Source: a virus
Length of the DNA stretch: 24,644 nucleotides
IMG/VR virus record: IMGVR_UViG_3300031705_000851
Span: 1-24,644 of that record
Reading direction: 5' to 3' (one strand)
The notes below the pieces were generated by a model that searched no databases, was not told where the DNA came from, and saw nothing but the letters and a program-made list of their open reading frames with translations. The position numbers were made by a program, and so were the translations under genes. Positions 3,744 through 24,121 of the stretch are shown one piece after another (position 1 is the first letter of the stretch; every line of letters starts with the position of its first letter).

Positions 3744-4253
3744 ATGTTAGTAACACAAGCACAAATGTTTGCAACAGCGGCACACGCCGCAATTGGACAA
3801 AAACGTAAATACAGTGGAGATGATTATATTGTTCATCCAGCTCGCGTAGCCAGTATTGTTACACAACATGGCGGAACAGATGAAATGGTTGCTGCTGCCT
3901 GGTTACATGATACTGTGGAAGATACAGATGTATCACCTGATCTTATCCTTGATATGTTTGGTGGGAAAGTTGCTGATATTGTCGAAGGACTTACTGATAT
4001 TAGTTTAGCAACAGACGGCAACCGAGCAAAGCGTAAATCAATCGATTGTATACACAGTGCAAATTCATCAACTGAATCACAATTTGTAAAGTGTGCTGAT
4101 ATTATTGATAACAGTTGGGATATTGCTGACAATGATAAGAGTTTTGCAAAGGTATACAAATCAGAAGTATTTGTTTTATTGCATGCAATGACTAAAGTAA
4201 AGCATACCGAGATTTGGGATCAAGCAATGCATAGCGTCGAGTTAATGCCTTAA
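3744..4253 (+). CDS. Small HD-domain (p)ppGpp hydrolase-like protein (169 aa)
   Basis: The order of motifs matches the hydrolase domain of RelA/SpoT and the small MESH1-type enzymes. These are HPARVA (H31), WLHDTVEDT (H55, D56, E59, D60), and a distal KCADIIDN (D119, N123). The size is close to single-domain MESH1 proteins, and no synthetase or regulatory domain is present. The expected reaction is removal of pyrophosphate from (p)ppGpp, using Mn2+ held by H31, H55, D56 and D119. In a phage this could blunt the host stringent response during infection, a role others have proposed for phage MazG; here that is inference. A good GGAG ribosome binding site precedes the ATG. Confidence 0.8.
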   Translation: MLVTQAQMFATAAHAAIGQKRKYSGDDYIVHPARVASIVTQHGGTDEMVAAAWLHDTVEDTDVSPDLILDMFGGKVADIVEGLTDISLATDGNRAKRKSIDCIHSANSSTESQFVKCADIIDNSWDIADNDKSFAKVYKSEVFVLLHAMTKVKHTEIWDQAMHSVELMP

Positions 4254-4275: not shown

Positions 4276-5250
4276 ATGCTTTATAAAACAATTGATACTG
4301 TAGAGTTTGATCTAAATACAGTGTGCAATAGTTATTGTCCACCATGCCACAGATACACAGTGCAAGACGGTGAACTATTTCACAATCCTTACGTAAAACT
4401 TAATTCAAACTTAGACCTGTCTGTAATCGAACGTGTGTTTGAGAACAGTAGATTAACTGATGATTGTTTTGTTGATTTAGTAGGACTAGTAGGTGAACCA
4501 ATTGCACATCCAAACTTTATGGAAATTATAGATATTATTTATAAGCACAAACCTGATGCTGCAATTAATTTGCACACAAATGGTGGATTACGTACTGAGA
4601 AGTTTTTCTTTGATCTAGCTAAAAAGTTTAATAAGAATAGTTGGATTAAATTTTCATTAGACGGATTAGAAGATACAAATGGTATATATCGTATTGGTGT
4701 AGACTATAATAAAGTAGTTGCAAATATGCGAGCATTTATAGATGGTGGTGGCCGTGCAATTTGGAAGTTTATTACATTTGAATGGAATAAACATCAAGTA
4801 GAAGAAGCAGAAGCATTAGCCAAAGAATATGGTTGCTATAAATTTCAACAAGATTGGGATGTCAATGACCTAGATATAGATATATTCATGGCCGCAGCTC
4901 AGAAGAAAATTAATAAAAAAGTTGCATCAAAAGCAGCAGTTTTTATTGATGTACCAAGTAATAGATCAACCAAAATTAAAGATAAATGTTTTTCGTATAA
5001 AAAAATATATGTAAATGCACATGGATATGTTATTCCGTGTTGTATGTTTAATGGTGCATTTACATATGAATCAATGCGTGACAAAACACTTAACTTTATT
5101 AAAGAAGATAGAGAAGAAGATTGGAACAGTTTATATAACAATAGCTTAGAAACTATAATGAGCAATACATGGTGGCAAAAGTTAAAAGACAGTTTTGAAA
5201 CAAAACCATGTGATATCTGTGTAAGCTCGTGTGGTGTTAAATTAGATTGA
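4276..5250 (+). CDS. Radical SAM/SPASM-like protein, copy 2 (324 aa)
   Basis: It is a clear paralogue of the protein at 913. Both start MLY, share the cluster motif (here CNSYCPPCHRYT; C17, C21, C24), LVGLVGEP, LHTNGGLR, FSLDGLEDTNGIYRIGV and the C-terminal PCCMFN. The last cysteines are CDICVSSC (C312, C315, C319). Two different proteins of one tight subfamily suggest two related substrates or a pair working together. The substrate is unknown. Like copy 1 it has a late box four bases upstream and no ribosome binding site. It needs two or more Fe-S clusters per chain, which links it to iscS and iscU in this window. Confidence 0.85.
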   Translation: MLYKTIDTVEFDLNTVCNSYCPPCHRYTVQDGELFHNPYVKLNSNLDLSVIERVFENSRLTDDCFVDLVGLVGEPIAHPNFMEIIDIIYKHKPDAAINLHTNGGLRTEKFFFDLAKKFNKNSWIKFSLDGLEDTNGIYRIGVDYNKVVANMRAFIDGGGRAIWKFITFEWNKHQVEEAEALAKEYGCYKFQQDWDVNDLDIDIFMAAAQKKINKKVASKAAVFIDVPSNRSTKIKDKCFSYKKIYVNAHGYVIPCCMFNGAFTYESMRDKTLNFIKEDREEDWNSLYNNSLETIMSNTWWQKLKDSFETKPCDICVSSCGVKLD

Positions 5251-5532: not shown

Positions 5533-6372
5533 ATGTATTATAAACGACAACTATTAGATATGCAAAAGCGAGCAGAGCTTGCATTAGAACAATCGCCAGC
5601 ACTAGCAACAACATTTGCAGATAGATTTCAAATGGCAGAAGATTTGTTTGCAAGGTTAGATAAACAAATGTTTATTGACTGCAATGATATTGATCCAACT
5701 GATCCATACAAAATTGAAACATGGAAAGACGAAAATGTTCCAGAAAAGAGTTTTGCACTAAAACATCAAGGTCCTGTATTTGGATTTGATATTGATACTA
5801 TGGTAGGGCCAGAGAGTTGGCATGATGAAACATCTGGAATGGATGATTATGTATTGCGTAGAAAATGTTATATATATGATTGGACAGCAGATAAACTAAA
5901 AGAAGACTTTCCAGAACTAACATATTTTACAAATTTACATAAAGAATTTGTTCCTGTATTGGATTATTATTATAACGAATGTTTTAACGATCAGTATATA
6001 GATGTTGAAAAAGTTTTACACAAACTTATGGTTATTGAATATTCGCATCCATCTGCAAATCAAGGCAATATTGTAGACCACAAGAAACACAATACAGAGC
6101 GGTTTGGTGATATACATTGTGATGAAACACTAGGTGGATTACATCTAGGAGAAAACGTAGTAGAGTTTTATATAGAAAACCATTTAACAAACGAACGTAA
6201 GAGTGTAGAAGGATTATCTAATAATAATACACTTTGGTTCTTTGGAGAATTTAGTGAACGTAGCGGGTGGCAACCAAGCATGCACGGCATGCAGCACAAC
6301 GCAGAAGACGATACCTGGAAAAGGTATAGTATAATTTTTGATTTACAAGCAAGATATAAAGGAGAAGAATAA
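5533..6372 (+). CDS. 2OG-Fe(II) oxygenase-like protein (279 aa)
   Basis: The C-terminal half carries the facial triad of 2-oxoglutarate/Fe(II) dioxygenases. H195xD197 is in IHCDETLGG, the distal histidine is H251 (or H255) in MHGMQHN, and R264 in KRYSIIFDL would bind 2OG. The N-terminal half is helical and specific to this protein. Such enzymes hydroxylate proteins, nucleobases or small molecules; the substrate is unknown. ATG 5533 with AAGG five bases upstream is preferred over the ATG at 5503, which would overlap the preceding gene by 29 bases. The stop overlaps the clpP start (TAATG), so it is co-translated with ClpP. Confidence 0.7.
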
Positions 6373-6962
6373 TGGCATTAGTACCAATGGTGGTCGAACA
6401 AACAGGCCGCGGAGAACGCAGTTACGATATTTACAGTAGACTATTAAAAGATCGTATTGTAATGTTAACTGGAGAAGTAAACGACATGACAGCAAATTTA
6501 GTTGTTGCACAAATGTTGTTCTTAGAATCACAGAATAGTTCAGACCCTATTAATTTTTACATTAACTCACCAGGCGGTGCAGTAACAGCAGGTCTTGGAA
6601 TATATGACACAATGCAATTTATTAAATCGCCAGTAAGTACAATTGTAATGGGACAAGCATGTAGCATGGGTTCATTCCTATCACAAGCAGGTGAAGCAGG
6701 ACAACGTCTTGTATTACCAAATTCACGTACAATGATTCACCAACCAAGTGGCGGTGCAGGTGGACAAGCAACTGATATGCAGATCCAAGTAAATGAGATT
6801 ATTAAAATTAAAAAGAACTTAACAGAGATCTATGTTAAACATAACAGTGTTGGCAAGACGTATGACGAACTTGTAGACGCAATGGAACGTGATAACTTTA
6901 TGTCTGCAGAAGAAGCAGTTGCGTTCGGATTAGCCGATAAAGTTATAGAAAGAAAAGCATAA
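6372..6962 (+). CDS. clpP: ATP-dependent Clp protease proteolytic subunit ClpP (196 aa)
   Basis: It is a full-length ClpP serine peptidase. The triad is S98 in GQACSMGS, H123 in MIHQPSGG and D174 in [14 protein letters not shown] (oxyanion region) and the C-terminal [13 protein letters not shown] are also conserved. There is no long propeptide. ClpP forms a double heptamer and needs an AAA+ partner; a matching ClpX is encoded at 10186 in this window. It starts on the stop of the oxygenase gene (TAATG). It may work in a phage-specific ClpXP or mix with host subunits. Family assignment is very secure. Confidence 0.97.
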
Positions 6963-9740: not shown

Positions 9741-10193
9741 ATGAAACCAAACGATAATAGCAGTTATACAGTAACAGCACCAGATTTATTCCTATCAGAA
9801 AATGGAGTAAACGTTTTAATAACAAGCACAGATATAGAACTAGTTAATGGAATCAAATTATTATTTGAAAAGTTTATCAGCACCAGTGTCATTTTTAATG
9901 TTCAGTTAACTCAATCAGACCCAGCAACTATGCCATGGATGTGGCACGTTAGTAGAACATGTGAATATATGGTAGTTGACCTTGATACATGTGCGTGGGA
10001 AGATATTATGGCTGCGTTATTAAAAACAAAAACACCTAACCATACTGTATTATTTTATACAGCAAAAGGAGTTAGGAGAGAAGCAATTAAGTTAATTAAT
10101 GCAACAAGCAGTTATATTACAATTACAAACTTAGAAGAATTAAACAAGTTCTTAGACATTGATACCAGGTACCCAGGCATGCCAGATGAGTAG
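9741..10193 (+). CDS. Hypothetical protein upstream of ClpX (150 aa)
   Basis: It starts three bases after the previous stop, with no clear ribosome binding site, and ends by overlapping the clpX start. The sequence alternates strands and helices. VLITSTDIELVNGIKLLFEKF near 25 and YMVVDLDTCAWEDIMAALLK near 73 look like a Rossmann- or receiver-like fold. The usual phospho-acceptor context is not convincing. Because it is translationally coupled to clpX it could be a partner or adaptor for the unfoldase, but nothing in the sequence proves this. Confidence 0.65.
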   Translation: MKPNDNSSYTVTAPDLFLSENGVNVLITSTDIELVNGIKLLFEKFISTSVIFNVQLTQSDPATMPWMWHVSRTCEYMVVDLDTCAWEDIMAALLKTKTPNHTVLFYTAKGVRREAIKLINATSSYITITNLEELNKFLDIDTRYPGMPDE

Positions 10194-11388
10194 TAATCCA
10201 TATTGCAATTTTTGCGGTAAAAACAAACATCAAACTAAAAAACTTTTAGCCGGAAATGATGGAACGCACATTTGTGATGGATGTGTTGATCTTTGTCATG
10301 ACATACTTATTAAAGAAAAAGCCAAAGCAACAGCACAACCAGAATCAGCAGCACGCCTTAAAGTACCTACACCGCTAGAATTACATGAACACTTAAATAG
10401 ATACGTAATAGGACAAACCACCGCTAAAAAGACGCTTAGTGTAGCTGTATACAACCATTACAAGCGTATTAAGAACACAACACAAGTAAAGCTACAAAAG
10501 AATAACGTGTTAATTGCAGGACCAACAGGAACAGGCAAAACACTAATTGCAGCCACATTGGCATCATATTTAGATGTTCCATTTGTAGTTACAGATGCAA
10601 CCACTATTACTGAAAGTGGATATGCAGGAGATGATTCAGAAGTACTAATAGATAAGCTATTACAAGCGGCCGACTATGATGTAGAAAAAGCACAATTAGG
10701 TATTATATACGTAGACGAAATTGATAAAAAAGCAAAGCGTAATGACATGGTAACATTAAGCCGTGATGTAAGTGGCGAAGGTGTACAACAGAGCTTGCTA
10801 AAATTGATGGAAGGTGTTACAATAACAGTACCGAACAAACATGGAAGCCAACCAGAGAAAGTAGATATTGATACAACTAATATTCTGTTTATAGTTGGCG
10901 GTGCGTTTATAGGGTTAGATGATATTGTAAAGCAGCGTATAGGAAAAGGCAAAATTGGCTTCAATGATGACCAAGCAAAAACAATAGATAATTGGGAAGA
11001 ACACTTACAAACCCCTGACTTAGTCAAGTATGGACTTATTCCAGAGTTTGTAGGAAGATTACCAAGTGTAAACGTTTTACACCAATTAACCAAGGAAGAA
11101 CTGATAAGAATACTAACAGAACCACAAGATTCAATAATAGATCAAATAAAAGTGCTTTTTTCACTTGACAAAATAGAAATAGAGTTTAATATAAAAGCAT
11201 TGGAAGAGATTGCATCTATTGCAATAGAACAAGACCTCGGAGCAAGAGGTTTAAGAAAGATACTGGATTCAGCACTTGTTGAAACACAATACCAGTTACC
11301 ACAACTAAGAGAGAGCGGGGTGTCAAAAATTATAATAACAGATAAAGTAATCACCGATGGTCACACACCATTAATGGTTAAAGGATAA
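10186..11388 (+). CDS. clpX: ATP-dependent Clp protease ATP-binding subunit ClpX (400 aa)
   Basis: It is a complete ClpX. The N-terminal zinc domain uses C7, C10, C30 and C33. Walker A is GPTGTGKT (112-119), Walker B is IIYVDE (173-178), and sensor 2 is GARGLR near the C-terminus. The IGF loop (257-259), which docks on ClpP, is intact, so it should pair with ClpP at 6372. Two substrate-gripping loops differ from E. coli: the pore loop GYVG is GYAG (145-148), and the RKH loop reads NKH. ATG 10186 overlaps the upstream gene and gives the canonical N-terminus. ClpX recognises ssrA tags ending LAA, as encoded by the tmRNA at 22767. Confidence 0.96.
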   Translation: MSSNPYCNFCGKNKHQTKKLLAGNDGTHICDGCVDLCHDILIKEKAKATAQPESAARLKVPTPLELHEHLNRYVIGQTTAKKTLSVAVYNHYKRIKNTTQVKLQKNNVLIAGPTGTGKTLIAATLASYLDVPFVVTDATTITESGYAGDDSEVLIDKLLQAADYDVEKAQLGIIYVDEIDKKAKRNDMVTLSRDVSGEGVQQSLLKLMEGVTITVPNKHGSQPEKVDIDTTNILFIVGGAFIGLDDIVKQRIGKGKIGFNDDQAKTIDNWEEHLQTPDLVKYGLIPEFVGRLPSVNVLHQLTKEELIRILTEPQDSIIDQIKVLFSLDKIEIEFNIKALEEIASIAIEQDLGARGLRKILDSALVETQYQLPQLRESGVSKIIITDKVITDGHTPLMVKG

Positions 11389-11389
11389 T

Positions 11390-11911
11390 ATGAAAAATTC
11401 ATCAAATAGTCCTCAAACCAGATTTCGTATTACAGCTAACGAAAAGATAAGAGCTACAGAAGTAAGAGTAATTGCACGTGATGAGGATAGTGTTGTAATG
11501 TCAACAGCTAGCGCATTACATTCAGCAAGGAATCAAGGATTGGATTTAATCCTTATTAATGAAAAAGCAGATCCACCATTATGTAGAATCGTAGAAATGA
11601 ATAAATATTTGTACGAACAGAAACAAAAAGAAAAAGCAGAGAAAAAACGCCAACGTGATAATCTAACTGATCAGAAAGAAATCCGTATGGGCTTAAACAT
11701 TGATCGCAATGATATGCAAACTAAAGCAAATCATGCTAAAAAGTTTATAGAACAAAAAGCAAAAGTCACGGTGACAATTGTTTTAAAAGGCCGAGAAAGA
11801 GGCAAACAGGACATGGCAAGGGACTTGTTGACTAGCTTTGCAGAAATGCTAGAAGTTGAGTATGATACGATAAATAGTCAAAACAACAGAGTCATAGGGC
11901 GTGTAAAGTAG
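11390..11911 (+). CDS. infC: Translation initiation factor IF-3 (173 aa)
   Basis: Both IF-3 domains are present. The N-terminal domain has RITANEKIRATEVRVI and the signature PPLCRIVEMNKYLYE near 62-76. A lysine-rich helical linker follows, then the C-terminal domain has KEIRMGLNID, AKKFIEQKAKVTVTIVLKGRE and a short end. IF-3 binds the 30S platform, prevents premature 50S joining and checks the start codon. The start is ATG with AAAGGATAA upstream, not the rare AUU used for autoregulation in many bacteria. It begins one base after the clpX stop and is followed by bS21. IF-3 also influences the use of leaderless mRNAs, which is relevant to the leaderless late genes predicted here. Confidence 0.95.
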   Translation: MKNSSNSPQTRFRITANEKIRATEVRVIARDEDSVVMSTASALHSARNQGLDLILINEKADPPLCRIVEMNKYLYEQKQKEKAEKKRQRDNLTDQKEIRMGLNIDRNDMQTKANHAKKFIEQKAKVTVTIVLKGRERGKQDMARDLLTSFAEMLEVEYDTINSQNNRVIGRVK

Positions 11912-11917
11912 GAACAA

Positions 11918-12190
11918 ATGGAAAAAAGAAAATATCCACCTAGAGATAGGAACAACGATAGAGATAACAAAAATAATGGACTGTCAGTTGAAGTCAGAAA
12001 CAACAACGTAGATCAGGCCATGAGAAAGTTAAAAAAGAAAATAATGAATGATGGAATGTTACAAGAGTTACGCGAACGCCAGCATTTTACAAGTAATACA
12101 GAAAAACGATTGAAGCGCCTGGCTGCGGCACGTGCTAGAGATCGTAAGCGTATGGCCAAGGATAAGATAGACAAAAAAAGGCTATACTAA
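11918..12190 (+). CDS. rpsU: Ribosomal protein bS21 (90 aa)
   Basis: The core SVEVRNNNVDQAMRKLKKK followed by RERQHFTSNTEKRLKR and the Lys/Arg-rich C-terminal tail ending RLY are the signatures of bS21. About 20 extra charged residues precede the core. bS21 lies on the 30S platform near the anti-Shine-Dalgarno region and affects mRNA selection. Phage-encoded bS21 is known from phages of marine bacteria and is thought to replace the host protein. The ribosome binding site AGGAA overlaps the infC stop, so the two are co-translated. The pairing with IF-3 points to deliberate retuning of initiation. Confidence 0.93.
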   Translation: MEKRKYPPRDRNNDRDNKNNGLSVEVRNNNVDQAMRKLKKKIMNDGMLQELRERQHFTSNTEKRLKRLAAARARDRKRMAKDKIDKKRLY

Positions 12191-12780: not shown

Positions 12781-13083
12781 ATGTCATCAACATCAACAGC
12801 AGCAGTAGCAGAAAAACAAACGTTAGCATCACCTAACAAATATATGGTTATTTTTCTAAATGACAACGTAACACCTATGGAATATGTAATCCAAGTACTA
12901 TTAGCATTCTATGGTAAAACAACAGAAGAAGCAAATGATATTACAGTGGAAGTACATGAAAAGGGTCGATCTATAGCAGGCATGTATAGTTACGAAGTAG
13001 CTGAACAAAAATGTATTGAAACTGTTACAGACGCAAGAAAGCATAACTATCCACTTGATGTAGTTATGGAAGAAACTACCTAA
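12781..13083 (+). CDS. clpS: ClpS adaptor protein (100 aa)
   Basis: The ClpS fold is evident: YMVIFLNDNVTPMEYVIQVL (residues 21-40), VEVHEKG with H59, YEVAEQK and YPLDVVMEE at the end. The N-degron pocket residues N27, D28, M33 and H59 correspond to E. coli N34, D35, M40 and H66. The next Asp of the usual NDD is Asn here. ClpS delivers N-end-rule substrates to ClpA in bacteria. No ClpA is visible in this window, so it would use host ClpA or alter substrate choice. Its N-terminal tail (about 18 residues) is of a length that could still engage the unfoldase. Confidence 0.93.
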   Translation: MSSTSTAAVAEKQTLASPNKYMVIFLNDNVTPMEYVIQVLLAFYGKTTEEANDITVEVHEKGRSIAGMYSYEVAEQKCIETVTDARKHNYPLDVVMEETT

Positions 13084-21067: not shown

Positions 21068-22282
21068 ATGACAGCTCCAACATATATGGATTATTCAGCA
21101 ACAACACCGGTAGACCACCGAGTTGCTAAAAAAATGGCAGAATGCCTAACAACAGAAGGCACATTTGGAAATGCAGCTTCACGCTCTCATTATTATGGGT
21201 GGCAAGCCGAAGCGGCAGTAGACAAAGCACGTAAACAAGTTGCAGATTTAGTAGGAGCAGATCCTAAAGAAATAGTATGGACATCTGGCGCCACTGAATC
21301 AAACAATTTAGCAATTAAAGGTATTGCACACTTTTACCAAAAGCAAGGTAAACATATCATCACACTAAAGACAGAACACAAAGCAGTATTAGACACTTGC
21401 CGTCAGCTAGAACGTGAAGGATTTGAAGTTACTTATATGAATCCATTACCAAGTGGACTGTTGGACATAGAAGAGTTCAAATCTATTTTAAGAGAAGATA
21501 CAATTCTAGCGTCATTTATGCACGTTAATAATGAAATTGGTGTTATACAAGACTTACATACAATTGGTGATATTTGCAGAGCAAACAAAACATTCTTTCA
21601 TGTAGATGCAGCACAGTCAGTTGGTAAACTCCCAATTAACTTAACAGAACTTCCAGTTGATTTAATGAGTTTCTCAGCACACAAGATTTATGGTCCAAAA
21701 GGCATGGGTGCATTGTATGTATCACGTAAGCCAAGAGTTAGGCTTGAAGCACAAATGCATGGTGGTGGACACGAACGTGGAATGCGTTCAGGCACATTAG
21801 CTACACATCAAATTGTTGGAATAGGCGAATCATTTGCAATAGCACAAGAAATGATGGCAGAAGAAGAAGTTAGAACACGTAATCTTAGAGATAGGTTATA
21901 TGCTGGCTTTTCGGACATGGAAGAAGTAAAAGTAAATGGCGATATGGAACAACGTATTGGCAATAACTTAAATATCAGTTTTAATCACGTTGAAGGTGAA
22001 TCATTAATGATGGCAATAAATGGTATTGCAGTATCATCTGGTTCAGCATGTACATCAGCAAGTTTAGAACCGTCTTACGTTCTTAGAGCATTAGGATTGC
22101 CAGATGAATTATCGGCCAGCTCTATTCGTTTCAGTGTAGGACGCTTTACAACTGAAGAAGATGTAGATAACGCAATTGTACTCGTTAGAGAAAAAGTAGA
22201 AAAGTTAAGAGAACTATCGCCACTATGGGATATGTACAAAGATGGAATTGATTTAAACACAGTAGTATGGGCTGCTCATTAA
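21068..22282 (+). CDS. iscS: Cysteine desulfurase IscS (404 aa)
   Basis: It is full length with the same numbering as E. coli IscS. The PLP lysine is K206 in [12 protein letters not shown], and catalytic C328 is in the mobile loop [18 protein letters not shown]104 and D180 are also in place. The end ([21 protein letters not shown]) matches the IscU-binding tail. It takes sulfur from cysteine and passes it as persulfide to the scaffold IscU, encoded 30 bases downstream, or to tRNA thiolation enzymes. IscR, HscA/B, ferredoxin and IscA are absent, so host partners would be needed. A dual promoter lies upstream; the ribosome binding site is weak. Confidence 0.96.
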
Positions 22283-22312: not shown

Positions 22313-22723
22313 ATGGCATATTCAGAAAAAGTAATGGATCATTATGAGAACCCACGTAATGTAGGTAAGTTTGATCCTAAAGAAAGTAATATTGGAACAG
22401 GAATGGTAGGAGCTCCTGCTTGTGGTGACGTAATGAGATTACAAATCCAAGTAGAAGATGGTATTATTACTGATGCTAAATTTAAAACATATGGTTGCGG
22501 TAGTGCAATTGCAAGTAGCAGTTTACTAACCACAATGGTAAAAGGTATGAATTTAGAAGAAGCTGGTGCAATCCAAAACATGGACCTTGCAGAAGAACTT
22601 GCATTGCCTCCAGTTAAGATTCACTGTAGTGTGTTAGCCGAAGATGCAATTAAATCTGCTATTGCAGATTATCAAGGCAAAAACCCAGTACCAGAAGGCG
22701 CCAATTATTTCGAAATTAAATAA
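22313..22723 (+). CDS. iscU: Fe-S cluster scaffold protein IscU (136 aa)
   Basis: All cluster ligands are present: C37 and D39 in APACGDVM, C62 in YGCGSA, and H104/C105 in KIHCSVL. The LPPVK motif (98-102) that HscA recognises is intact, so it should use the host chaperone. The C-terminal extension is slightly longer than E. coli IscU. It assembles 2Fe-2S and 4Fe-4S clusters from IscS sulfur. TAGGAG precedes the ATG. It shares a transcript with iscS, and the tmRNA promoter begins just after its stop. Confidence 0.96.
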   Translation: MAYSEKVMDHYENPRNVGKFDPKESNIGTGMVGAPACGDVMRLQIQVEDGIITDAKFKTYGCGSAIASSSLLTTMVKGMNLEEAGAIQNMDLAEELALPPVKIHCSVLAEDAIKSAIADYQGKNPVPEGANYFEIK

Positions 22724-22730
22724 ATAAAGG

Positions 22731-22761
22731 TTGACAATTTATACACTCTCATGTATAAATA
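22731..22761 (+). promoter_or_regulatory. Overlapping sigma70 and T4-late promoters for the tmRNA
   Basis: TTGACA (22731-22736) is 17 bases from TATAAA (22754-22759), and the same bases extend to TATAAATA (22754-22761), the exact late consensus. Both predict +1 at about G22767. TTATACA-N6-TGTATAA (22739-22758) is an inverted repeat covering the spacer and -10. Confidence 0.75.
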
Positions 22762-22766
22762 ACATT

Positions 22767-23032
22767 GTAACGTTGAAACAAGCTAAACGACGAGCTGGAC
22801 CTGGGGGCAGTACCCAGCAGCTCCACCATAAACACATTGCACAGTTAGTGTGCTTATGATGGGGCTGAACAAGGATCGACAGGCGGATTAATAGGCGAGT
22901 GGAGTTACCCGGATCTAAGCACGGTTATCGCGAAGAAACTTTATAATTGCAAATGACAATTATGCGCCAGAAATGGCCTTAGCAGCTTAGACTGCTAGTG
23001 AGGTAGCTATACCTTATTACCCAAACTAGTAG
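22767..23032 (+). ncRNA. ssrA: Permuted two-piece tmRNA, alphaproteobacterial type
   Basis: The acceptor piece comes first and ends CAGCTCCACCA at about 22827, with a T-arm CTGGG/CCCAG. The coding piece begins at 22861 with GGGGCTGA. GGGGCTG pairs with CAGCTCC over seven positions, including the G3-U70 wobble read by alanyl-tRNA synthetase. GGATCGAC follows as in other tmRNAs. The tag frame (22949-22990) reads ANDNYAPEMALAA-stop, starting GCA AAT GAC. The stop lies in the loop of TAGCAG/CTGCTA (helix 5). The spacer 22828-22860 would be excised. The tag ends LAA, a ClpX degron. The exact processed ends are estimates. Confidence 0.95.
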
Positions 23033-23059
23033 AAAGGGTGTCTTAGGGCACCCTTTTTT
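23033..23059 (+). terminator. Rho-independent terminator of the tmRNA
   Basis: AAAGGGTGTC pairs with GGCACCCTTT (one G-U) around TTAG, followed by a T run. Confidence 0.9.
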
Positions 23060-23064
23060 GTGAT

Positions 23065-23073
23065 TATAAATAC
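23065..23073 (+). promoter_or_regulatory. T4-type late promoter, consensus box, leaderless arrangement
   Basis: TATAAATAC, four bases (taac), then ATG at 23078. It sets the start of the third radical SAM gene at 23078 rather than at an upstream in-frame alternative start at 23060. Confidence 0.7.
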
Positions 23074-23077
23074 TAAC

Positions 23078-24121
23078 ATGATCTACTCAAAGAATCCTAA
23101 AATACTACAACTAGAATTAAGCAGTATGTGTAATGCATTATGCCTAGGATGTCAGCGAGTTGATCCAAATACATTTAATAGTGTACTACCCAGTATTCCA
23201 AAGAAAGAAATAATCGCAGTAGACATAATACGTAAATTAATTAATAGTCCTAGAATGTCTGGAATAGAAGAAGTAGAATTTTGTGGAACTATTGATGAAC
23301 CACTAATGCATCCAAACTTTATGGAAATCATAGATGTTATATATGAAGCAAATCCACTTATAGAAATAAAAATACATACAAATGCAAGTCTACGTACACC
23401 GCAGTTTTGGAAAGACTTAGCACACAAGCTATCTAAGTTTAAAGGACATAAAGTATTATTTGGTATAGATGGACTAGTTGACACACATGTTATATACAGA
23501 CAGCAAACAGACTTTGATCTTATTATTAGAAACGCAATACATTTTATAGGTGCAGGCGGTAAAGCACAATGGCAGTATATTATATTTCCATGGAACAAAC
23601 ATCAAGTAAATGAAGCACGTGATATGAGTAAACAAATTGGCTTTGCAGAATTTAAAACTCGTAATGACAGAAGTGGAGTAAGCGAAGATGGATTAAACGA
23701 AATCCGAAAAATACAACAAAATGGGGGAAAGTCTAAACTAGGCATTAATGCTAACAAATTCAATGGTTACAAAATTAGTTGTATGAACAAGGAAGATGAT
23801 ATGTTTCATGTTTCGTACGATAGTAGATTATGGCCATGTTGTTATTTTGGAAATGTGCAATACATGGGACCTACGTTGTATGATGAATTTAAAAAAAGAA
23901 TATTTGGGGTGTATGGAGAAGATTTTAATTTGCTCACTAAGCACACAGTAGAAGAAATATTAGATTCAGAGTTATATAAAAATGATTTAGTAGAGTCTTG
24001 GAATAATCCAATCGGGTGTGGTAGCAAAGATAAAGTAAATCGGTGTGCAATGTCATGTAGTGTAAAAGCACTTGAAACAAGACCAATTGCAACAGCTCAC
24101 GAAGTTACAAAAAACTTTTAA
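23078..24121 (+). CDS. Radical SAM/SPASM-like protein, copy 3 (347 aa)
   Basis: The cluster motif is CNALCLGC (C18, C22, C25). It shares with copies 1 and 2 the layout IDEPLMHPNFMEIIDVIY, IHTNASLRT, FGIDGLVDTHVIYR and IFPWNKHQVNEA. The C-terminal cysteines are C in KISCMNKED, WPCCYF, and CGSKDKVNRCAMSC. It is more diverged: LHTNGG becomes IHTNAS and the last cysteine group is spread wider. This implies a different substrate within the same fold. Its neighbours are the tmRNA and tRNA-Glu. It has no ribosome binding site and is predicted leaderless from the late box. Confidence 0.85.
   Translation: MIYSKNPKILQLELSSMCNALCLGCQRVDPNTFNSVLPSIPKKEIIAVDIIRKLINSPRMSGIEEVEFCGTIDEPLMHPNFMEIIDVIYEANPLIEIKIHTNASLRTPQFWKDLAHKLSKFKGHKVLFGIDGLVDTHVIYRQQTDFDLIIRNAIHFIGAGGKAQWQYIIFPWNKHQVNEARDMSKQIGFAEFKTRNDRSGVSEDGLNEIRKIQQNGGKSKLGINANKFNGYKISCMNKEDDMFHVSYDSRLWPCCYFGNVQYMGPTLYDEFKKRIFGVYGEDFNLLTKHTVEEILDSELYKNDLVESWNNPIGCGSKDKVNRCAMSCSVKALETRPIATAHEVTKNF

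Follow-up and report, generated by a model that had tools for sequence, protein, structure and literature searches.

A permuted two-piece tmRNA gene with a phage-type tag in a Clp-rich jumbo-phage lineage

In this paper we looked at a permuted two-piece tmRNA gene in a 24.6-kb IMG/VR virus fragment, which was analyzed over its whole length (the window). The best explanation is that it is probably a functional phage ssrA gene. This reading is built on what can be read from the DNA itself, namely the RNA architecture and its covariation, the tag, the predicted promoter and terminator, the Clp gene set and the loss of the RKH loop in ClpX. Phage two-piece tmRNAs are a kind already known, from Melnitz and from Sinorhizobium jumbo phages; new here are the essentially phage-only tag family, the variant 3′ end, and the loss of the RKH loop and of the pore-1 valine in the window ClpX. 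The features are as follows.

6372–6962, + strand: ClpP (PF00574, E 2.5e-76; alignment to solved ClpP)
10186–11388, + strand: ClpX, with zinc finger, Walker A and IGF loop, without RKH loop, pore-1 GYAG
12781–13083, + strand: ClpS-like adaptor (PF02617, E 1.6e-25; under the NCBIfam equivalog cut-offs)
21068–22282, + strand: IscS, upstream neighbour of the tmRNA
22313–22723, + strand: IscU, directly upstream of the tmRNA
22731–22761, + strand: putative promoter, TTGACA (22731–22736), 17 nt, TATAAATA (22754–22761); sequence match
22767–23032, + strand: permuted tmRNA gene (RF04321 and RF01849 covariance-model matches)
22767–22828, + strand: acceptor piece (RF04321 match from 22767; stems kept across 68 sequences)
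22829–22860, + strand: spacer (intervening segment) of 32 nt, closed by UAAACACA/UGUGCUUA
22861–23032, + strand: coding piece (Rfam match and sequence parsing; predicted 3′ end)
22949–22990, + strand: tag reading frame from GCA to UAG, ANDNYAPEMALAA plus TAG stop (sequence parsing)
22992–23032, + strand: variant 3′ domain, CUGCUAGU/ACUAGUAG stem plus AGGUA-GCUA-UACCU hairpin (sequence and fold)
23036–23059, + strand: predicted intrinsic terminator GGGTGTC-TTAG-GGCACCC-T6 (sequence and fold)

An earlier note on this DNA had described a permuted two-piece tmRNA with the acceptor piece first and had proposed a covariance-model search. This search was run and it confirms the description: the full RF04321 model matches 22767–22990 on the + strand (104 bits, E 1.3e-19) and RF01849 (alpha_tmRNA) matches 22727–23059 on the same strand (94 bits, E 1.1e-24), both above the Rfam gathering scores of 47 and 50. 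Most cellular tmRNAs reach 115–166 bits with RF04321, compared with the 104 bits of the window tmRNA. ARAGORN called only a tRNA-Glu and a tRNA-Trp in the window and no tmRNA, so standard annotation could overlook such a gene. Sequence and covariance models place the acceptor piece 5′ of the coding piece, with the intervening segment between them. The acceptor piece is composed of the P2 5′ strand GUAAC (22767–22771), the T-arm CUGGG/CCCAG, the acceptor 3′ strand CAGCUCC and an ACCA end, with the CCA encoded in the DNA (22828). The coding piece holds the acceptor 5′ strand GGGGCUG, a D-like segment, the P2 3′ strand, the tag ORF and the 3′ stem-hairpin. The window sequence breaks some P2 pairs of the Rfam models. 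The 32-nt spacer contains no ORF and would be excised from the transcript.

The RNA is well conserved among phages. In a set of 68 distinct phage tmRNAs, all T-stem cells are paired (340/340; shuffled mean 0.73) and so are 475 of the 476 acceptor-stem cells (shuffled 0.88), while the P2 fits in 30 sequences give 171/180 paired cells (shuffled 0.86, maximum 0.91). The stem pairs interchange among C-G, T-A, G-C and A-T. Judged from these counts, the pairing in the acceptor stem, T-stem and P2 is kept by compensatory changes and is not due to chance. The G3-U70 pair, which had been described as kept, is indeed present in the window stem GGGGCUG/CAGCUCC and in all 68 phage sequences.

The gene also appears to have its own transcription signals. 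TTGACA-N17-TATAAATA has a single match in the whole window, directly upstream of the tmRNA, where 0.01 are expected, and TTGACN-N15-19-TATNAN is found at the equivalent position in 64/68 distinct phage tmRNAs. Transcription may start near 22766–22767, which is the 5′ end of the acceptor piece. In 48 cellular tmRNAs this position is occupied by a leader hairpin and the promoter site is absent there, so their own promoters may simply sit further upstream. The possibility that TATAAATA is a phage late-promoter signal was rejected, as its frequency in the window is not above chance. At the other end, an 8-bp outer stem (22992–22999 with 23025–23032) encloses an inner hairpin. The usual alpha-type 3′ pseudoknot with CUGGCAACAGAA is absent from the window, and the stem-hairpin and the terminator stand in its place; since the core model RF04321 omits the 3′ terminal region (PMC11915505), we regard the pseudoknot as a feature that varies within the family. 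The same 3′ class was found in a sister phage (L169) and at L122, L151 and L177, with a terminator after each, and RNAalifold on five sequences supported the inner hairpin and the terminator in all of them and the outer stem more weakly. A tmRNA 3′ end at 23032 fits the end of this stem, just before the terminator hairpin proper (23036–23053), which is followed by T6. This terminator was absent from the output of a pattern scan.

The tag frame opens with an Ala resume codon and closes with a hydrophobic Ala-Ala degron; ANDNYAPEMALAA ends in LAA. A stop is found at codon 14 in 72/72 distinct phage contexts (TAA 40, TAG 28, TGA 4), and this stop after codon 13 lay outside the search pattern. Several tag residues were forced by the pattern, and thus the tags found by the covariance model alone serve as the independent set. 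Most tags in that set read AN[DNA]N[YRK]xP[EA]MA[LIM]AA, and the deviating ones are AEDNFAIAA, ANNDVYEYKLAA and ANNNDYxxAQxxLAA. In 84,980 species genomes, a degenerate pattern of the P-x-M-A-[LIM]-A-A family has matches on only two contigs, each of which looks like a phage, and a slightly broader pattern matched at least 119 stretches in IMG/VR. PxMA is absent from all 48 sampled alphaproteobacterial cell tags. By these searches the family appears to be essentially phage-only. The features that mark these contigs as phage-like are an IscU-tmRNA-SNase-bS21 order, and ribonucleotide reductase and glutaredoxin genes. One (L114, PBPT01000016.1, 335 kb) lies in a Neomarinimicrobiota MAG bin and the other (L115, PALK01000009.1) in a Rickettsiales bin, probably by misbinning. 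Naming a cellular host by the tag was therefore abandoned, as these were the only MAG contigs that matched.

One alternative is that the gene is a passenger: an ssrA gene that was picked up from a host, for example as the relic of an attachment site, and that serves no function. It is true that tmRNA genes are common integration sites and that an origin by gene exchange was proposed for a Melnitz-like case (PMC9004378). However, compensatory stem changes, tag frame, promoter and terminator are conserved over dozens of divergent phages and no integrase was found in the window, and we regard a functionless relic as extremely improbable.

The phage nature of the window was supported by its relatives. 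The record comes from IMG/VR, and structural genes are absent within the window. Relatives of its ClpX are encoded at 62 IMG/VR loci, with a common order of ClpP, a Zeta-like kinase, SNase, a 428-aa membrane protein, ClpX, IF3, bS21, Hsp20 and ClpS. One relative (G033, 204.8 kb), with the ClpX block and the tmRNA, has genes for the large subunit of a terminase (E 6e-133) and for a tail sheath protein (E 3e-196), and a Gp23-type capsid is encoded in three others (G024, G026 and G039). Based on these genes, this marine phage is assigned to a contractile-tailed jumbo-phage lineage, of which the window is a fragment, and the earlier view of a phage rather than a host chromosome holds. A permuted tmRNA was found above the cut-off in 30/50 records with a ClpX relative, and in 24 of the 35 in which the sequence runs on for 12 kb or more downstream of ClpX; the ClpX-tmRNA distance is 8–15 kb in many records. 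The statement that tmRNA genes are uncommon in phages is thus right overall, with 402 of 18,146 phage genomes (PMC9004378), but not for this lineage, where they are usual. Permuted tmRNAs with very long spacers were not found in the four records inspected for them (G025, G026, G028 and G041), and among the records without the permuted form no standard tmRNA scored above the cut-off, the matches resembling tRNAs.

Several other genes of this region may be mentioned. The IscU-tmRNA adjacency is repeated in several relatives. Next to the window ClpX, IF3 and bS21 (11390–11911 and 11918–12190) are further translation parts in the same block. There are three related radical-SAM proteins (913–1905, 4276–5250 and 23060–24121), one of them with a SPASM match; the gene at 23060–24121 begins right after the tmRNA terminator. 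A small HD-domain protein at 3744–4253 resembles the hydrolase part of RelA/SpoT.

Another group of observations regards the tmRNA spacers of related phages. In 9/12 distinct spacers of at least 130 nt, a forward ORF spans most of the spacer (the loci are L088/L089, L145, L136, L151, L087, L115, L128, L091–L093 and L117). The L088 and L145 spacers have a common 77-aa membrane-like protein (dN 0.07, dS 1.14) and their tmRNA parts differ, and a 62-aa protein (dN 0.04, dS 0.16) is encoded in both the L136 and the L151 spacer. The 77-aa protein has no INPHARED match, and in the literature searched small protein genes within tmRNA spacers were not found described. In the L075 spacer, the acceptor end and the coding-piece start are partially duplicated in tandem, with an altered acceptor stem and T-loop.

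The permuted form had also been taken to point to the host class. In a quick tree (116 tips, about 165 columns, midpoint root), 64 phage tmRNAs, including that of Melnitz, group together and apart from 45 cellular ones, with support of 0.71 and 0.67. This is suggestive, though not strong, of a phage group separate from the alphaproteobacterial tmRNAs. Since the phage tmRNAs, Melnitz included, appear to cluster apart from the 48 alphaproteobacterial ones, and since the methylotroph host of Melnitz is outside Alphaproteobacteria (PMC9004378), an inference of host class from the permuted form is unsafe and the claim is not supported in that form. Like the window, the alphaproteobacterial two-piece tmRNA (RF01849) has this gene order, a T-loop of the GGCAGUA type and an ANDN tag start; unlike in the window, its T-arm is preceded by a leader hairpin and GGCGAUAAACG, the 3′ pseudoknot is kept and none of 48 tags shows PxMA.

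Among 133 distinct phage tmRNAs, 53 are of the two-piece form (PMC9004378). Melnitz (a Methylophilales phage, EXVC039M-044M) resembles the window in its permuted ssrA with an alpha-like RNA of the same phage cluster, but it is a 142-kb T4-like phage with a 142-nt spacer, the tag ANDNYVPVDYALAA and a glutamine riboswitch linked to ssrA. ClpX and ClpP are unmentioned in the text of that paper (PMC9004378), and ClpA was searched for in Melnitz and not found. The Sinorhizobium jumbo phage AP-J-162 has a tmRNA plus six Clp ORFs, with ClpX near IF-3 (PMC11242549), and Phosso (PV764938), like the window lineage, has a permuted tmRNA, ClpX, ClpP, ClpS and ClpA. Differences from the window are a tmRNA that lies away from ClpX, an RNA placed outside the main phage cluster and, in Phosso, a 410-nt spacer and the tag ANDNVSTKVALAA. 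Agrobacterium phage Atu_ph07 and Pseudomonas phage PA5oct share ClpX, ClpP, ClpS, ClpA and Hsp20 with the window lineage, and PA5oct also has bS21 beside ClpX, but a permuted tmRNA was searched for in both and not found. As judged by its genes, the window Clp block is related to those of Atu_ph07, Phosso and PA5oct. The tmRNA genes of the Bxz1-group mycobacteriophages are of the standard one-piece form, and that of mycobacteriophage DS6A has little beyond the tRNA-like domain. Like the window, these phages (the Bxz1 group and the decoy-like DS6A, listed in PMC4131195) encode an ssrA; the full tag in the window indicates that its RNA is not a decoy made of a tRNA-like domain only. A literature search of incomplete coverage found no link of phage tmRNA with phage ClpA, ClpX or ClpS and no description of RKH loss.

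The earlier note had placed ClpX and ClpP in the same segment, and both are present together with ClpS. In the window ClpP, the Ser-His-Asp triad residues align in the GQACSMG, MIHQP and ERD segments, and the protein is thus predicted to have the residues of an active ClpP. In a sister phage (G003, ClpX 89% identical) a ClpA-type unfoldase (TIGR02639, E 9e-227, under the curated cut-off) is encoded 11 kb past the tmRNA. Full-length ClpA-type matches were found in 19/61 records, several of them near-duplicates, and 17 of these 19 carry the permuted tmRNA. Any ClpA that the window phage itself may encode would be out of view, as the fragment ends. No SmpB was found in the tmRNA-bearing records, which are fragments, and the lineage's own SmpB, which a complete trans-translation system would include, is missing from them; such scarcity fits the use of host SmpB. 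SmpB was found in 2/50 records (G047 and G048), which have a distant ClpX and no permuted tmRNA above the cut-off. The set of the lineage thus appears to be ClpA, ClpX, ClpP, ClpS and tmRNA without SmpB, and the co-occurrence of the ClpX, ClpA, ClpS and tmRNA genes is not constant across records.

A further question is which protease reads the tag. The note implied that the LAA-ending tag is recognised by the neighbouring ClpX, and in the strongest form of this idea the adjacent phage ClpX is a dedicated reader, an own tag for an own ClpXP. The tag does end in LAA, ClpX and the tmRNA are 8–15 kb apart in many records, and the window ClpX, which aligns over its full length to the solved E. coli ClpX, has Walker A, IGF and the GYxG tyrosine. 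Yet in E. coli ClpX the ssrA tag is read by Y153, V154, T199, V202, R228 and H230 (PMC7652416), and the window ClpX has GYAG for GYVG in pore-1, LSRDV for ITRDV in pore-2 and VPNKHGSQPEK in the RKH region, which is three residues shorter and has no RKH. Its whole clade lacks R228 and H230, with V154 changed to A and T199 to S, and the RKH-less state is constant throughout it; this clade retains the zinc finger and the IGF loop. Human ClpX differs at two of the tag-reading residues (T199 and H230) and becomes able to degrade ssrA substrates only once it is given E. coli loops (PMC7652416). The RKH-type loop and GYVG are retained in the ClpX of other phages, for example L050, L052–L056 and L059–L063, and in that of a Rickettsiales MAG (L270). 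The same PxMA tag is found in L267–L269, phages with an RKH-containing ClpX, and a contig (G051:C57, taken as the 335-kb PBPT01000016.1) has the tag ANDNYAPEMAMAA and ClpA, and no ClpX was found there. An orthogonal tag-ClpX pairing, plausible from the RKH-less clade, was rejected, as phages with an RKH-containing ClpX have this tag too; tag and local ClpX thus do not go together. A dedicated phage ClpX is therefore doubtful and we consider it very unlikely; the tag is more likely to be read by host ClpXP or by ClpAP than by the window ClpX.

Another hypothesis is that the phage RNA acts as a competitor, which displaces the host tmRNA from SmpB and ribosomes and adds a phage-suited tag (for example one degraded by a phage-encoded ClpAP, or bound poorly by a host adaptor), so that host proteins are recycled for amino acids. 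This would fit a tag family that is essentially confined to phages and exceeds most host tags in length, and a lineage that has no SmpB yet has ClpA, ClpP, ClpS and ClpX; for Melnitz, it was suggested that host proteins are tagged selectively (PMC9004378). Still, there is no sign that the phage tag is handled differently from host tags, it is independent of the phage ClpX type and it occurs on a phage contig without ClpX, so that we hold hijacking of this kind to be unlikely. A wider scheme, a phage-specific tag-and-destroy branch, can also be suggested, in which the tmRNA would take over host SmpB, a phage-only degron would mark stalled products, and ClpA-ClpP (with ClpS) and a retuned ClpX without ssrA recognition would split the substrates; we offer it as a speculation that is rather improbable.

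A functional phage ssrA gene is supported by the two Rfam models, the compensatory pairing, the conserved tag frame, the promoter in 64/68 and the terminator, by the tmRNA being kept near the Clp block (24/35 records with enough flank), and by ClpA in 19/61 records, 17 with the permuted tmRNA. Against it we count the lower RF04321 score, the broken P2 pairs, the replaced pseudoknot, a window without structural genes, and Clp and tmRNA genes that are not always together. Expression, processing, charging, tagging, the acting protease and the benefit for the phage are inferred, and may be as follows. Transcription of the permuted tmRNA would be driven by a promoter of the phage and begin at the acceptor piece or close to it, and host tRNA-processing enzymes would remove the spacer to leave two paired pieces. 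Host AlaRS would charge the RNA via G3-U70, and host SmpB and EF-Tu would bring it to stalled ribosomes, where it would add ANDNYAPEMALAA to the stalled product and release the ribosome. In late infection, with mRNAs and host transcripts broken, the shared ribosome pool may thereby remain usable, and truncated products would be destroyed. The tag would probably be read by host ClpXP and/or ClpAP with phage ClpP available, phage ClpA being known from the sister phage, and the phage ClpX is probably retuned toward other substrates.

These results suggest that phage tmRNAs of the permuted type form a separate lineage, and that their conserved tag is hardly used by bacteria. They accompany much Clp machinery without SmpB, and in the window clade ClpX lacks the known ssrA-reading loop. 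A permuted tmRNA is an unsafe predictor of the host class of a phage, and caution is needed when it is used in this way. With such a system at hand, a possible redirection of ribosome rescue by phages becomes testable.
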